Source: Eubacterium sp.
GTDB lineage: Bacteria > Bacillota > Clostridia > Oscillospirales > Acutalibacteraceae
DNA: 64,000 bases
Assembly (NCBI GenBank): GCA_022511205.1
Contig: JAFLRY010000001.1
Coordinates: forward strand, 1 to 64,000
Direction of reading: 5' to 3'
This document shows, piece by piece, positions 9,231 through 16,430 of this stretch (its first letter is position 1; every line of letters begins with the position of its first letter). The position numbers and the translations under genes are program-made. Under the pieces are notes generated by a model. It had not been told where the DNA came from. It worked only from the letters and a program-made list of their open reading frames with translations, and ran no database searches.

Positions 9231-10709
9231 CTAAAGTATAATGCAGATAAGTCCGCTGCAACCCTCGTTGATAACTCTTTCGATAGTCTCTCTGAACTTA
9301 TTTCTTGCGTCTGCAGGCATTCTTTCAAGCTTGCCGCGAAGTCCCTCGTTAACAAGCTCATGGAGCGATTTGCCGAATATATCCGTTTTCCAAAGCTCAG
9401 CGGGGCTCTGCTCAAACTCTCTGAGCAGATACATAACAAGCTCTTGCGACTGGCTCTCGCTTCCGACGATCGGCGCAACCTCTGTATAAGTATTGCACTT
9501 TATCATATGGATGGACGGCGCCTGAGCCTTCAATCTTACTCCGTATCTGCCGCCCTGCTTCATAATTTCGGGTTCCTCAAGGGTCAGCTCAGTTATATCC
9601 GGCATTACGATGCCATAGCCCGTTCTTTCCACCTCGGAAAGCGCAGCTGAGAAGCGCATATAATCTTTTCTTATGGCGGTCAGCTCAATGATTTCCTTCA
9701 TAAGCTCTTTTTCGTTGGAAATGGAGACGTTGCATTCCTTGGAAAGAATTGAATAGAAATAACTGCTGTCGATAGAAATTTTGATACTGATGCTTCCGTT
9801 TGAAAGATCGAGATCGGAGATATTAAGACTTTCAATATCCTCATTCGCCGCAAGCCTTTCTGAAAATGCCTTAACGCTTCTGATATTATTAACTTCACTG
9901 CAGCATTCTTTTACAGATGAAAACAGCTTGCATTTCAGCTCGTTATCAGAATCAAGGCTCTTGATCCATGATGGGAAATTAAGCGAAATGCTCGTTACCG
10001 GGAATTCGTAAAGCACTCGTTCAAGAATGGCGTTTATCTTTTCCTCATCAAGCTCAAGGCAGTTTACCGGAAGCACGGGAACGTCATATTTTCTCGACAT
10101 TGCCTGGCAAAGCGCGCCGGTTTCCGCGCTGTCCGGTTCAACGCAGTTCATAATTACTACGAAGGGCTTGTTGATCTCCTTTAATTCCTTGATTACTCTT
10201 TCCTCAGCCTCTTCATATTCATCACGCGGAATAGCGCTGATCGAGCCGTCTGTAGTTACCACAAGCCCGATCGTTGAATGCTCGTTGATCACCTTTTGCG
10301 TGCCGATCTCCGCCGCCATATTAAAGGGTATCTCTTCTTCGAACCAGGGCGTGCGCACCATTCTCGGCTGATCCTCTTCTATGTAGCCCACGGAGCTTGG
10401 AACGATATAACCAACGCAATCTATGAGCCTTACCCTGAAATGCAGATTATCCTGCATGGAAAGCTCTATGGCTTCCTCGGGTATGAATTTCGGTTCGGTA
10501 GTCATTATCGTTCTGCCCGCGGCGCTCTGGGGCAGCTCATCTCGGGCGCGCTCCTTTTGAAATTCGCCGCTTATCCTGGGAATGACAAGGTTATCCATAA
10601 AGGATTTTATAAAGGTTGATTTTCCCGTTCTGACAGGGCCGACAACGCCGATGTAGATATCACCCTGCGTTCTCGATGATATGTCGTTATATATGCTCAA
10701 ATCATTCAC
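9231..10709 (-). CDS. spoIVA: Stage IV sporulation protein A (spore coat morphogenetic ATPase)
   Basis: Very strong SpoIVA signature: DISSRTQGDIYIGVVGPVRTGKSTFIKSFM; C-terminal GCSGLICIIL. Confidence 0.97.
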   Translation of the reverse strand: MNDLSIYNDISSRTQGDIYIGVVGPVRTGKSTFIKSFMDNLVIPRISGEFQKERARDELPQSAAGRTIMTTEPKFIPEEAIELSMQDNLHFRVRLIDCVGYIVPSSVGYIEEDQPRMVRTPWFEEEIPFNMAAEIGTQKVINEHSTIGLVVTTDGSISAIPRDEYEEAEERVIKELKEINKPFVVIMNCVEPDSAETGALCQAMSRKYDVPVLPVNCLELDEEKINAILERVLYEFPVTSISLNFPSWIKSLDSDNELKCKLFSSVKECCSEVNNIRSVKAFSERLAANEDIESLNISDLDLSNGSISIKISIDSSYFYSILSKECNVSISNEKELMKEIIELTAIRKDYMRFSAALSEVERTGYGIVMPDITELTLEEPEIMKQGGRYGVRLKAQAPSIHMIKCNTYTEVAPIVGSESQSQELVMYLLREFEQSPAELWKTDIFGKSLHELVNEGLRGKLERMPADARNKFRETIERVINEGCSGLICIIL

Positions 10710-10712
10710 TCC

Positions 10713-12170
10713 TTACATTCCCGGAATTAAAAGAATACGCTTGTTGTTTAAAACGTCCTCTTTAAGCTCGTTTTCTGCTTTTATCAGATCAACCGAGGTC
10801 CTGAATTTTTTAGCGATATCCCATAACAGCTCATTTTCATCTGCAAAATATACCACCAGCGCAGGTGAATCGGCAATATCATTCTCAGTTACCTGAATAT
10901 CGGATACAACGCTGAAGGTGCGTTCCTCAAATTTTACCGCGTTAAATTCGATTAGGTATCTAATGCCTATTTCATTTTCGGAATTGATAACGTAATCAAA
11001 GGATTTCACGTAAACCGCTGAAGCGCTGAAGCTTTTCATTTCGATTTCTTTTCGCTGGCTGACGTAAATCAGCTCGGAATTTTGATTTCGTATAAAAGCG
11101 TTTAGCTCAATATTCTTTCCGTCACAAATATTAAGTGAAAGATCGGCAACCTCAACGATCTTTATATTATCAAATTGGAAAGTTGCTTTTGCGCTGAGTA
11201 CGTCGGAAATAAACTCGCCGTTTACGTTAAGCCTTACCTTGCTGAAGGTGTTCGTGATTTCCTTGTCCGTAGCATAGGAATCGGTTGTCAGCTGAGCAGT
11301 TACTTTTCTGAATACCGAAACGTTCATATTTACGTCGCCGATCAATTCGATCATTCTCAACTCGTTATTTTTATCAGCCTTTGGCTTAACGTAAATATTG
11401 CCTACTGCCATATTTACTATGGCGTTGTCGCCTTCGTCAATGCCGTTTAAATCAATTATTTTGCTGATCGAAACTGATTTCTCACACCTTCTTATAACCT
11501 CGTGTTCCGTGTCTGTGGTGTAGAGAATCGAAAACTCAGCAGTAGCTTTAACGAGCATTTTGTTTTTGATTATCTTTGTTTCCTCGCAGTGAACGCTTGA
11601 GAAAGTGTTTATGATTTTTCTTACAACGTCGCTATCGGCAGGAATGATCGTTTCCTCTTCAAATTCAGCTCTGGCAAAGGCGGAGCCTATAAGAGAAAGA
11701 TAATTAACAGTATCACGGCGGATCAGCGTATTTTCGGCATCGTCTATCATATTTATCGGCGTGCAGGCAGTGATTCTTATATCCAGCGCAAAGGCGTTAT
11801 GTATGTCTATTCTTCTTTGATTGATAACTCTGAAATTACTATATCTGTTAATTACCAGCACTTCGGCTGATACATCCTCATAATTGCCCTCGATATTAAT
11901 GCTTTTCTGGAAATCCTCCTCAAAATCGGCGGTAGTTATATTTGAGGAAGCATCGCTCACATATGTTAAGAATATTTTTGATTTTCCGTAGACGGTCAAA
12001 ACTCCGTTACTGTAATCGGTATTCACTATAAAGTTATTGATACAGCAACGTATAATTTTTAATAGATCGTCGTTATACGACATCAGATTTTCCTGAAAAT
12101 CAAGATCAACGTCAACGCATTTAGAAAATACGCTGCATCTTTCCGTCATTTCCCTAACGTTATTTTCCAT
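10713..12170 (-). CDS. DUF3794 and LysM protein, SipL-like SpoIVA-interacting coat morphogenetic protein
   Basis: DUF3794-like repeats, C-terminal LysM (ADENELLWDIAKKFRTSVDLIKAENEL...ILLIPG); adjacent to spoIVA. Confidence 0.8.
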   Translation of the reverse strand: MENNVREMTERCSVFSKCVDVDLDFQENLMSYNDDLLKIIRCCINNFIVNTDYSNGVLTVYGKSKIFLTYVSDASSNITTADFEEDFQKSINIEGNYEDVSAEVLVINRYSNFRVINQRRIDIHNAFALDIRITACTPINMIDDAENTLIRRDTVNYLSLIGSAFARAEFEEETIIPADSDVVRKIINTFSSVHCEETKIIKNKMLVKATAEFSILYTTDTEHEVIRRCEKSVSISKIIDLNGIDEGDNAIVNMAVGNIYVKPKADKNNELRMIELIGDVNMNVSVFRKVTAQLTTDSYATDKEITNTFSKVRLNVNGEFISDVLSAKATFQFDNIKIVEVADLSLNICDGKNIELNAFIRNQNSELIYVSQRKEIEMKSFSASAVYVKSFDYVINSENEIGIRYLIEFNAVKFEERTFSVVSDIQVTENDIADSPALVVYFADENELLWDIAKKFRTSVDLIKAENELKEDVLNNKRILLIPGM

Positions 12171-12229: not shown

Positions 12230-12258
12230 AACATATGCGCAAACTTTTTGATATATAA
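12230..12258 (-). promoter_or_regulatory. Candidate sigma-E-type promoter for the sipL-like/spoIVA genes
   Basis: Minus strand TTATATA (12252-12258), 14-nt spacer, CATATGTT (12230-12237), resembling the sigma-E consensus; sits just past the spoVM terminator. Confidence 0.4.
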
Positions 12259-12259
12259 C

Positions 12260-12291
12260 AAAAAAGCCCTGTAAAATCTTACAGAGCTTTT
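12260..12291 (-). terminator. Rho-independent terminator downstream of spoVM
   Basis: Minus strand AAAAGCTCTGTAA-GATT-TTACAGGGCTTTTTT. Confidence 0.85.
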
Positions 12292-12298
12292 CGTATGT

Positions 12299-12382
12299 TC
12301 AATTATTTACTTTTTTTATTTTGAAAATCATTCTCATTATAGGGGCCATAAATTTGGGCGGATTTACAATTACTACTTTCAC
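12299..12382 (-). CDS. spoVM: Stage V sporulation protein M (27 aa, GTG start): MKVVIVNPPKFMAPIMRMIFKIKKVNN
   Basis: Aligns without gaps to B. subtilis SpoVM (MKFYTIKLPKFLGGIVRAMLGSFRKD), sharing P9, K10, F11, I15 and R17; GGAGG Shine-Dalgarno 7 nt upstream of GTG; located after thiN as in B. subtilis; terminator downstream. Not in the ORF track. Confidence 0.88.
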   Translation of the reverse strand: MKVVIVNPPKFMAPIMRMIFKIKKVNN

Positions 12383-12397
12383 GATCATTCCTCCAAA

Positions 12398-12541
12398 TCA
12401 TTTTTTACAGCATATTATGCCGAGAATGATTACTGCAAATGCCAAAATTCTTAATAACCAGGCAGAAGGCAGGCAAATAGCAAGAACGCATCCAAAGCCG
12501 AAAGCCAGCCATAAAAAATCTCTGCGGCACATCTTTTTCAT
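12398..12541 (-). CDS. Uncharacterised 47-aa Cys-rich membrane micro-protein: MKKMCRRDFLWLAFGFGCVLAICLPSAWLLRILAFAVIILGIICCKK
   Basis: Complete ORF with AGGTG upstream; two hydrophobic segments, positive N-terminus, five Cys; fills the thiN-spoVM gap. Not in the ORF track. Confidence 0.55.
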   Translation of the reverse strand: MKKMCRRDFLWLAFGFGCVLAICLPSAWLLRILAFAVIILGIICCKK

Positions 12542-12593
12542 ATGAGTAAACACCTCGCACGGCTGTATTTACTACATACTATGAAGAATCGTC

Positions 12594-13226
12594 TTAATCG
12601 TTACTCATAATCAGTAAAATTTTTCCTTCGTTAACAGAAATCTTAACTTTACCGCCGTTAAAATGGTTGCTCTGGCAGAGCTGATCCCAAGGCTCTATAT
12701 CGATGTTATCCGTTTCATAATGCGCTCCTTTTATAGTAACGCCCTTAGCCCTTCCAAAAACAGCGAACAAAGAAAAGTAACGGTAATCCTCTTCGTCAAA
12801 CTCAATTTCATTTTCAACAAGCTGAATCTTGTTTTTCGCGTTTTTAATGGTGCAATTAATGCCGTTTTGCCGGCAATATTCAAGGCAGAGAATATTTGAA
12901 TATGTATGATCCACCCGATCGCCTATCGCGCAGAGAATTTCGATATCGCCGTATCCAAGCTCAATAGCCTTCTTAACGCAGTAAAAAGTATCCGTTTCGT
13001 CTTTTTCGATCGGAAGCCTTATCACTCTGTTTCCGAATTGAGGGCAGGAAGCTGAGTCGAAATCTCCGATAATAAGATCGGGTATGATTCCTGCCTTAAG
13101 ACAATTCTTATATCCCGAATCCGCAGCGATAATAAACGCTGTTCTGTCCAATTTACTTTTTATAAACTGAATATCATTGTCCGGCGCGCCAGAGACGATA
13201 ACGCACTTTACTTTTTGATTTCCCAT
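12594..13226 (-). CDS. thiN: Thiamine pyrophosphokinase
   Basis: IIAADSGYKNCLKAGIIPDLIIGDFDS, KDETDTFYCVKKAIELG, GDRVDHTYSNI motifs. Confidence 0.95.
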   Translation of the reverse strand: MGNQKVKCVIVSGAPDNDIQFIKSKLDRTAFIIAADSGYKNCLKAGIIPDLIIGDFDSASCPQFGNRVIRLPIEKDETDTFYCVKKAIELGYGDIEILCAIGDRVDHTYSNILCLEYCRQNGINCTIKNAKNKIQLVENEIEFDEEDYRYFSLFAVFGRAKGVTIKGAHYETDNIDIEPWDQLCQSNHFNGGKVKISVNEGKILLIMSND

Positions 13227-14092
13227 TCCTTTATGTCCTTAACCTCATTATACAGCTGAACGTAGCTGTCGTGTCTGCTCTTTTGAACTCTTCCGTCCTT
13301 CACCGCCTCACAAACGGCACATCCCTTTTCGTTTATATGGGCGCAGGTGGAAAACTTACATTTGCCGAAATATGGCTCAAACTCACGGAAGCAGTCGAAC
13401 AGCTCGTCTTTTAATATCGTTTCACAGCGTTCCAAATCAAGAGAGGAAAAGCCCGGCGTGTCCGCAACGTAGCCGCCGCCTACTTTATAAAGCTCGCAGT
13501 GGCGCGTTGTGTGCTTTCCTCTGCCGAGACGCTTGCTGGTTTCACCTGTTTTAAGTGCAAGATCGGCGTCTATCGCGTTTAAAAGCGAAGATTTCCCTAC
13601 GCCTGTGTTGCCCGTAAAAGCGGATATCTTGCCCTTCAGAAGCTCTCTGACCTGCTCTGCTCCCCTGCCGTCTTTATTACAACACACAATAGTTTTAAAG
13701 CCTGAAGCTTCATATATCTTTTTATATTCAATATATGAATCATCAAGATCGATCTTCGTGAAAACGATGACAGGCTCGATATTCTTATATTCCGCTATGG
13801 CGATCATTCTATCGATAATAAACGTATTCACCGCAGGCTCAACGGTTGAAGAAACGATGAAAAGCTGATCGAGATTCGCCAGCGGCGGACGAACGAGCGT
13901 ATTCTTTCTCTGCAGGATATTTTCTATTCTGTTTTCAGCGTTTTCGCCCAAAGAAATTTCCACATCGTCTCCTACGAGAGGAACGATATTCTGTTTGCGG
14001 AAATTTCCGCGGGGCTTACATTCATAAACAGTCTCGGCGGTTTCCACATAGTAGAAACCGCCAATCCCTTTGATTATTTTTCCTTGTATCAT
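13208..14092 (-). CDS. rsgA: Ribosome small subunit-dependent GTPase A
   Basis: TGNTGVGKSSLLN, DTPGF, circularly permuted GTPase order, C-terminal Cys/His zinc motif. Confidence 0.96.
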   Translation of the reverse strand: MIQGKIIKGIGGFYYVETAETVYECKPRGNFRKQNIVPLVGDDVEISLGENAENRIENILQRKNTLVRPPLANLDQLFIVSSTVEPAVNTFIIDRMIAIAEYKNIEPVIVFTKIDLDDSYIEYKKIYEASGFKTIVCCNKDGRGAEQVRELLKGKISAFTGNTGVGKSSLLNAIDADLALKTGETSKRLGRGKHTTRHCELYKVGGGYVADTPGFSSLDLERCETILKDELFDCFREFEPYFGKCKFSTCAHINEKGCAVCEAVKDGRVQKSRHDSYVQLYNEVKDIKEWEIKK

Positions 14093-14141: not shown

Positions 14142-16415
14142 CTAATCTGCAGGATCATATGTATTCTCATCACCCGACGGTTCGTTCGGGGCCTCTGTGG
14201 GCGCTTCTGTAGGAGCTTCGGTGGGCGCTTCCGTAGGAGCTTCAGTCGGCGCTTCCGTTGGTGGTTGAGTTGGCGCCTGTGTTGCCTGAGTAGTTGCTTC
14301 GGTCGGACGTTGTGTAGAGCCGGTAGTAGGCTGCGTAGGCGCGGCTGTCGGCTGAGCAGACGTTGGGCGCTGAGTAGCTCCTGAAGTCGGCTGCGCCGAA
14401 GTCGGTCTCTGCGTCGATTGAGTCGGCCTATCCGTTGACTGAGTAAAGGAAGCGAAGCCGAAATCAACAGTTGAATGCTGATCGCTGTTAAGGTTGTAGT
14501 TGAGTTCCTGCTGAGCCACAGTTTCATCAAGTGCAACAACTACAGTAACATTTTCACTTGCTTCCCGGGCTATCGTGATCTGAGTTTCAGAGCCGTCAAG
14601 TCTTATACGGGTGCTGCTGTACTGAGCACCGTTTACACTTGTGATAAGATTATCGTAAATGTAATATCCGTTTCTGTTTATGCAGGATGGAAGCTTAACA
14701 TTTATAGTAATCGTGTATTGATTGGGCGGAATAAAGTTGCCGTTTGAAACGATTAGTTTGATATCATCGTTCTCTTTTGCAGTTGAGGGATATTCAGGAT
14801 CTTGTGAAACGACCGTTCCCATCGGAAGCGCGCTATCTACCATTTCTATATTTACATTTTTGAAGCCTACTTTTTTAAGAATAGACTGAGCGTCATTCTG
14901 TGAAAGACCGATAACGTCCGGAACAGGATAGCTGTTTTCAGTTAAAACAGTAGGACCTGTCGAAACGTAAATCGTAATAAGCGTATCCTCGGAAACAGGC
15001 GCAGTAGCGCGAGGCTCGGTATAAACTACCATACCCTCTGCGATAGTTTCACTTGCGATAGTGGCAACCTTAATATTGTTAAGCCCTTCGTTTTCAAGCA
15101 TCTGTCTTGCTTTTTCTTCAGTTATCTCGTAGCAGTTGGGAACTATTTTGCTCTCGGTCGAAGCGGCAACCTTTAAGATGATCTGCGTACCCTTAATAAC
15201 GACTGAACCCGCGCTGGGATTCTGCTCAAGGATCGTTCCCGCCTCATATTCAGAGGTTATATCATATTCGGGAGTAAATGAATAATTGGTGTATTTTGAA
15301 ATAACGGTATCATAGGATTGGCCAACGAAGCTCTCCAGCTTGATTGCCTGAGTATCCATTCCGTCAGAAAGCCAGAAAACAAGGCTTACCGCGGCGGTGA
15401 CAAGCAGGATCAATCCCATAACGGTGGCGGCAAAAACCTTACGCTTATTCTTTTTGCGCTCTGCCTTATCCTCTGCCTGATCGTTGCCTTTACTCTTTGC
15501 AGTAGTGCTGATACCGGGGATATCATCTCTCTTAACAAATTTTGTCGGCTGATCGTCTACGTAATAAGAATAGTCAAACGTTGCCTTCGGGTTTTTGATC
15601 ACCTCTTCAAGATCAAGGAGCATTTCAGTAGCAGTCTGATATCTTTCAAGCGGATTTTTCTGCATTGCGTGAATGCAGATCTGCTCAAGACCGAGCGGAA
15701 TATCCGGATCAATAGCAGTAAGCCTTTTCGGCTCCTCGTTTACCTGCATAAGGGCAACGGAAACGGCGCTGTCTGCCTCAAAAGGAACTCGTCCCACAAG
15801 CATTTCATAAAATACTACGCCCAGAGAATAGATATCAGCTCTTTCGTCAGTAAGCTCTCCCTTAGCCTGTTCCGGAGAAATATAATGAACTGAGCCGATG
15901 GCGTTTTCCGATAAGGTCTTCGTTTCGGTTCTTGAAAATCTCGCGATACCGAAATCAGTTACTTTAATATTTCCTGTGGGAAGCAAAATGATATTCTGCG
16001 GCTTAATATCTCTGTGAACGATGCCTTTATCGTGGGCGTGCTGTAACGCCTTAAGTATCTGAGAAATGAAAAATACCGCGTCATTCCAAGTGATGATCCC
16101 AAGCTTTTGGATATACTCCTTAAGCGTGATCCCGTCCACGTACTCCATAACTATGTACTGGAGCTTATCGCCGAAGCTTACGTCATAAACCTTAACGATA
16201 TTCGGATGAGACAATACGGCAATCGCCTTGGATTCATTCTTGAACCGTCTCACAAAATCCTCATCGTGAATGAATTCCTCCTTAAGGATTTTAACGGCAA
16301 CGATCCTATCGTCCACGTTATCGTATGCCTTATAAACAACAGACATTCCGCCCACGCCGATGATCTCGTGGATCTCATATCTGCCGTCAAGCCTTTTTCC
16401 TACGTAATTTTCCAT
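14142..16415 (-). CDS. prkC: PASTA-domain Ser/Thr protein kinase PrkC (Stk1) with Thr/Pro-rich C-terminal tail
   Basis: Kinase motifs (VAVKIL, HRDIKPQNI, DFGIAR), TM segment, three PASTA-like repeats; start corrected to MENYVGKRLDGRYEI. Confidence 0.95.
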   Translation of the reverse strand: MENYVGKRLDGRYEIHEIIGVGGMSVVYKAYDNVDDRIVAVKILKEEFIHDEDFVRRFKNESKAIAVLSHPNIVKVYDVSFGDKLQYIVMEYVDGITLKEYIQKLGIITWNDAVFFISQILKALQHAHDKGIVHRDIKPQNIILLPTGNIKVTDFGIARFSRTETKTLSENAIGSVHYISPEQAKGELTDERADIYSLGVVFYEMLVGRVPFEADSAVSVALMQVNEEPKRLTAIDPDIPLGLEQICIHAMQKNPLERYQTATEMLLDLEEVIKNPKATFDYSYYVDDQPTKFVKRDDIPGISTTAKSKGNDQAEDKAERKKNKRKVFAATVMGLILLVTAAVSLVFWLSDGMDTQAIKLESFVGQSYDTVISKYTNYSFTPEYDITSEYEAGTILEQNPSAGSVVIKGTQIILKVAASTESKIVPNCYEITEEKARQMLENEGLNNIKVATIASETIAEGMVVYTEPRATAPVSEDTLITIYVSTGPTVLTENSYPVPDVIGLSQNDAQSILKKVGFKNVNIEMVDSALPMGTVVSQDPEYPSTAKENDDIKLIVSNGNFIPPNQYTITINVKLPSCINRNGYYIYDNLITSVNGAQYSSTRIRLDGSETQITIAREASENVTVVVALDETVAQQELNYNLNSDQHSTVDFGFASFTQSTDRPTQSTQRPTSAQPTSGATQRPTSAQPTAAPTQPTTGSTQRPTEATTQATQAPTQPPTEAPTEAPTEAPTEAPTEAPTEAPNEPSGDENTYDPAD
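14191..14262 (-). repeat. 12-bp coding tandem repeat (PTEA units) in the prkC tail
   Basis: Six consecutive 12-bp units (e.g. GCTTCTGTAGGA, GCTTCGGTGGGC) encoding APTEAPTE... Confidence 0.85.
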
Positions 16416-16430
16416 ACACCGATACCTCAA

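Follow-up and report, generated by a model that had tools for sequence, protein, structure and literature searches.

The gap between thiN and spoVM in the window, by which we mean the whole stretch of 64,000 nucleotides analysed, raises the question of whether the small open reading frame (ORF) that it contains is a gene and, if so, what its product does next to spoVM. The run of genes in the window is prkC, rsgA, thiN, the microprotein gene, spoVM, a sipL-like gene and spoIVA, located as follows:

14142-16430, minus strand: prkC, PASTA Ser/Thr kinase.
13208-14092, minus strand: rsgA.
12594-13226, minus strand: thiN (thiamine diphosphokinase), whose last codons overlap a -35 element.
12398-12541, minus strand: microprotein gene, 47 aa, ATG start and TGA stop, identified from the ORF reading, homologues, selection, alignment and predicted structure.
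12299-12382, minus strand: spoVM, 27 aa, GTG start, with a match to NCBIfam SpoVM_broad below the cut-off.
10713-12170, minus strand: sipL-like gene with SPOCS and LysM domains.
9231-10709, minus strand: spoIVA.

An earlier note on this DNA had described a complete, unreported 47-aa ORF preceded by AGGTG, and both statements were borne out: the ORF is intact from ATG to TGA at 12541-12398 of the minus strand, and a GAGGTG ribosome-binding site lies 5' of the ATG. The Ka/Ks analysis proposed in that note gave a median dN/dS of 0.16 in 46 unsaturated pairs, as expected under purifying selection. Among 19 close relatives, whose alignment is nearly gap-free, the median pN/pS was 0.257 in the microprotein's own frame, where third codon positions were the most variable, and above 1 in most other frames, the exception being the reverse frame, where third positions mirror those of the real frame. 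A search for relatives, also proposed there, detected the microprotein in 186 of 398 Acutalibacteraceae genomes with a single sequence and homologues in 301 of the 398 with a profile. Frameshifts, loss of the ORF or neutral substitutions at the same synteny, the outcomes that had been named as speaking against a gene, were not found inside Acutalibacteraceae. The microprotein is a real protein-coding gene under purifying selection. A chance ORF in the gap, which the short length and the lack of a database family might suggest, is excluded by this selection, by wide conservation and by the adjacency to spoVM described below, and its probability is virtually nil. In one locus (L010, near 1465) the ribosome-binding site is not followed by any ATG, GTG or TTG in the frame of the microprotein, and an Ile codon occupies the expected start position.

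A class-wide sample yielded the microprotein in about a third of the genomes (102 of 291, E <= 1e-3). Caproiciproducens galactitolivorans, which the NCBI taxonomy places in Acutalibacteraceae, has a match at G946:C5:113437-113577; its coordinates are identical to those in G234, one of the 398 genomes, which assigns the family to Acutalibacteraceae. Judged by these sequence matches, the microprotein family spans the spore-formers of the class Clostridia.

Within the aligned set the proteins are 46-57 aa long and share a basic N-terminus, two membrane helices, a GxG motif, a Pro in the turn and a Gly towards the end, so that the basic N-terminus and two hydrophobic segments of the earlier note hold across relatives as well. 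The first helix carries AFGxG, Pro25 in the turn between the helices is present in 40 of 41 sequences, and a small residue at position 34, Gly41 and the basic end are further conserved positions; column 8 is Gly in most relatives and Asp in the window protein. AlphaFold placed helices at 6-23 and 28-46 with moderate confidence (pLDDT 68), and the microprotein is therefore predicted to be a two-helix hydrophobic hairpin, both basic ends of which, following the positive-inside rule, probably lie in the mother-cell cytosol. The five Cys and the Cys-Cys-Lys-Lys end pointed out previously do exist in the window sequence, but not as a conserved feature: the number of Cys varies from 0 to 7 per protein and no column contains more than 27% Cys. 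A functional role for these residues was rejected since their positions are not conserved.

Family libraries did not recognise the protein. The window microprotein had no match in Pfam, its only match in NCBIfam was TatB_1 (12.9 bits, cut-off 100), with none to SpoVM_broad, and a search of Rfam gave no match, while a profile search of the PDB returned one meaningless match (E 0.71). For the family members inspected individually, every Pfam and NCBIfam score was below cut-off. Some members match Pfam DUF6249 and DUF3784 weakly across the hydrophobic part (15.6-18.2 bits in those examined versus cut-offs of 33 and 28.1), and only the second half of these longer domains matches the microprotein.

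The position of the gene relative to spoVM was then evaluated in loci collected by order- and class-level searches and read individually. spoVM lies directly downstream of the microprotein in 164 of 174 distinct loci, compared with 16 of 692 control ORFs of similar size. Since most loci came from sequence search rather than from position, the adjacency is not built in, although the class model had been trained on sequences from some of these genomes. The gap between both genes has a median of 17.5 nt (5-95% range, 11-62 nt). The microprotein-spoVM pair has been relocated together away from thiN-rsgA (L104, L169 and L170), having left thiN in Candidatus Heritagella-like genomes; in other loci its neighbours are nth, pyk, mnmE or clpC-like genes. 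In family f65 the order is rsgA, rpe, thiN, microprotein, spoVM, rpmB (antisense), asp23 and yloV, gene names at the f65 loci and at those with nth, pyk, mnmE or clpC-like neighbours being read from translations without a database search. Because the pair persists where thiN is left behind, spoVM and not thiN is the partner of the microprotein, and the emphasis that the earlier note had placed on the thiN neighbour was misplaced.

A similar arrangement has been described in C. difficile, where spoVM is co-transcribed, sporulation-specifically and under sigma-E, behind CD25622, which encodes an uncharacterised protein of 50 aa (Ribis et al. 2017, PMC5607322). As at that locus, the window has an ORF of about 50 aa directly 5' of spoVM on the same strand. 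CD25622 is also near rpmB, a layout which we found in f65 (L242, L247 and L264), and we consider it the positional counterpart of the microprotein, the presumed homology resting on position and size. CD25622 was described as unique to Peptostreptococcaceae (PMC5607322), whereas the microprotein family spans the class Clostridia. In the open literature, no paper besides PMC5607322 was found naming the microprotein or CD25622. What this analysis adds is a family extending across the class, a promoter common to both genes and a pairing that does not depend on thiN.

The gap in the window depends on which spoVM start is taken. An alternative in-frame ATG exists at 12388, but the GGAGG Shine-Dalgarno sequence is only 1 nt before it and 7 nt before GTG 12382, and relatives start with MKVV; GTG 12382 is therefore the better start. 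Counted from this GTG, the gap is 15 nt, compared with the 16 nt given in the earlier note. The 29-aa spoVM ORF scores 23.1 bits against NCBIfam SpoVM_broad, whose cut-off is 31, and with this score and a probable GTG start, spoVM may be missed or mis-started by automatic annotation.

Three predicted expression signals lie around spoVM:

12574-12604, minus strand: putative promoter of the microprotein-spoVM unit, GTAACGAT, 10 nt, CTTCATAGTATGT, a motif match.
12261-12292, minus strand: predicted intrinsic terminator downstream of spoVM, with a stem of 14 pairs, a T run and a folding z-score of -5.8.
12230-12259, minus strand: putative sigma-E-like promoter of sipL-spoIVA, GTTATATAT ... GCATATGTT, read by eye.

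An unsupervised two-block motif search in the upstream regions of 65 deduplicated microprotein-bearing loci returned kk-mACm-N16-CRTAnnmTG, with a log-likelihood of 317 versus about -70 for shuffled sequence. The window promoter is the top site of this motif on both strands of the 64 kb (16.0 bits; runner-up, 13.3). Its -35 letters fall within the last thiN codons (AGT AAC GAT) and are unchanged, synonymous positions included, in 14 of 15 genus relatives, while the remaining relative has a single change preceding them. The motif is also present 5' of spoVM in 20 of 22 microprotein-less loci, all outside the training set, with a mean score of 16.6 bits versus -0.4 for shuffles; the promoter therefore appears to belong to the spoVM unit, with the microprotein occupying its first position. 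A genome-wide count of the promoter pattern was uninformative (33 matches versus 34 for the reversed control), and the canonical sigma-E pattern showed no enrichment upstream of the microprotein gene. The combination of mACm with CATA resembles the Bacillus sigma-K consensus, and that of ATA with CATA, the sipL type, the sigma-E consensus. The sipL-spoIVA promoter is separate, has an ATA-type -35 unlike mACm and is conserved in genus relatives; it begins inside the T-rich tail of the spoVM terminator. Since the motif of the microprotein is sigma-K-like but the unit in C. difficile depends on sigma-E (PMC5607322), we grade its promoter only as mother-cell type, and the unit would be driven by a mother-cell sigma factor. 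One promoter, one terminator and the 15-nt gap suggest that the microprotein gene and spoVM are probably co-transcribed as a two-gene unit. Co-expression with spoVM, previously proposed from position, is strongly supported by the near-invariant adjacency (164 of 174 loci), by the promoter common to both genes and by the published co-transcription of CD25622 and spoVM (PMC5607322). The sipL-like gene and spoIVA (9231-12170) come directly after the spoVM unit, so that this lineage has its coat basement genes in a single cluster.

The presence of the microprotein was also associated with sporulation. In the class sample, spoIVA was found in 93 of the 102 genomes with the microprotein (E <= 1e-3) and in 115 of the 189 without it (odds ratio 6.6, Fisher p about 1e-8 over 291 genomes, uncorrected for phylogeny), and 5 of the 9 microprotein genomes lacking spoIVA are at most 85% complete. 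A vegetative role with the rsgA-thiN operon and no link to sporulation would fit the many genomes in which the microprotein follows thiN; it is nevertheless very improbable, since the microprotein remains with spoVM once apart from thiN, has its own promoter and follows spoIVA in its presence. We conclude that the microprotein is, with high probability, encoded by a genuine sporulation gene belonging to the spoVM unit.

The pairing is broken in some loci. At the thiN-rpmB site, families f46 and f66 carry the microprotein but no recognisable spoVM (in f46: L196, L198, L203, L206, L246, L263 and L268), and a search of four whole f46 genomes found no spoVM; most f46 genomes with the microprotein also carry spoIVA. 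Loci L118 and L131 likewise have the microprotein without spoVM. Conversely, in Ruminococcus-type loci (L112-L160) spoVM, preceded by the promoter motif described above, comes right after thiN and the microprotein is cleanly absent. It was also absent elsewhere in most of the named Ruminococcus genomes tested, the exception being L148, with a copy on another contig. In f46 and f48, an extra small hydrophobic two-helix ORF with a motif like G...P.W.WY was observed between thiN and the microprotein (L196, about 1320-1475; L198, L203, L206, L240, L249, L258 and L263), possibly a tandem paralogue.

The retention of the microprotein without spoVM in f46 bears on whether the ORF could be a cis-acting leader tuning spoVM translation, its protein being of minor importance. 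Such a leader would account for the short gap and the constant position 5' of spoVM, and also for the expression of spoVM in C. difficile, 50-100-fold below that of spoIVA and sipL (PMC5607322). Besides f46, the purifying selection on the amino acids, the conservation of GxG, Pro and Gly over divergent sequences and the ribosome-binding site that spoVM itself possesses all argue against it, and we regard it as improbable.

We propose instead, tentatively but as a reading that could well hold, that the microprotein directly aids SpoVM as a helper protein in the outer forespore membrane, the forespore membrane being the site of action suggested in the earlier note. Its gene, the first cistron of the two-gene spoVM unit, would be expressed from its own promoter in the mother cell, and the protein would fold as a helical hairpin, most likely in the outer forespore membrane. 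There it might aid insertion, persistence or retention of the amphipathic helix of SpoVM, and the coat could then be anchored by SpoIVA and SipL. SpoVM and the microprotein are both small sporulation membrane proteins apparently made from the same transcript, but the former consists of one short amphipathic helix (22-30 aa in those relatives that were read) and the latter of a predicted two-helix hydrophobic hairpin. The insertion in CD25622, which is polar on spoVM, caused the same defect as a spoVM insertion, and the authors concluded that CD25622 contributes little to the spoVM phenotype (PMC5607322); this is expected if both act in one pathway, but equally fits no function. Against a helper of SpoVM are the genomes of f46 and f66, which keep the microprotein without detectable spoVM, and those of the Ruminococcus type, which keep spoVM without the microprotein. 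The f46 genomes argue for some role of the microprotein beyond SpoVM.

That role could be a coat or cortex job of its own, like that of SpoVQ or CmpA, for a mother-cell membrane protein merely sharing the spoVM promoter. SpoVQ of C. difficile (CD3457), a lineage-restricted protein made in the mother cell, works together with SpoIVA and SipL in the outer forespore membrane, but it is bitopic, consisting of a soluble domain and a single membrane helix at its N-terminus, and has no link to spoVM (PMC8265636). The presence of spoIVA in f46 and f66 and the tracking of spoIVA by the microprotein agree with an independent job. However, the adjacency to spoVM is near-invariant and survives relocation, a linkage closer than a common part in sporulation would require, and the insertion in C. 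difficile adds nothing beyond the spoVM phenotype (PMC5607322); we consider an independent job rather unlikely. It is conceivable but doubtful that this class-wide, integral two-helix protein forms a membrane complex with SpoVM and, at the surface of the outer forespore membrane, serves as its receptor or stabiliser. If true, coat anchoring in Clostridia would rely on two components and in this differ from Bacillus.

SpoVM is a model for the recognition of membrane curvature by a tiny protein, and it is essential in Bacillus, although C. difficile can almost do without it. The existence across Clostridia of a second membrane microprotein from the same unit, missed by family libraries and previously thought to be confined to one family, could help to explain this difference. 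In many uncultured gut spore-formers, the microprotein provides a defined and testable gene.
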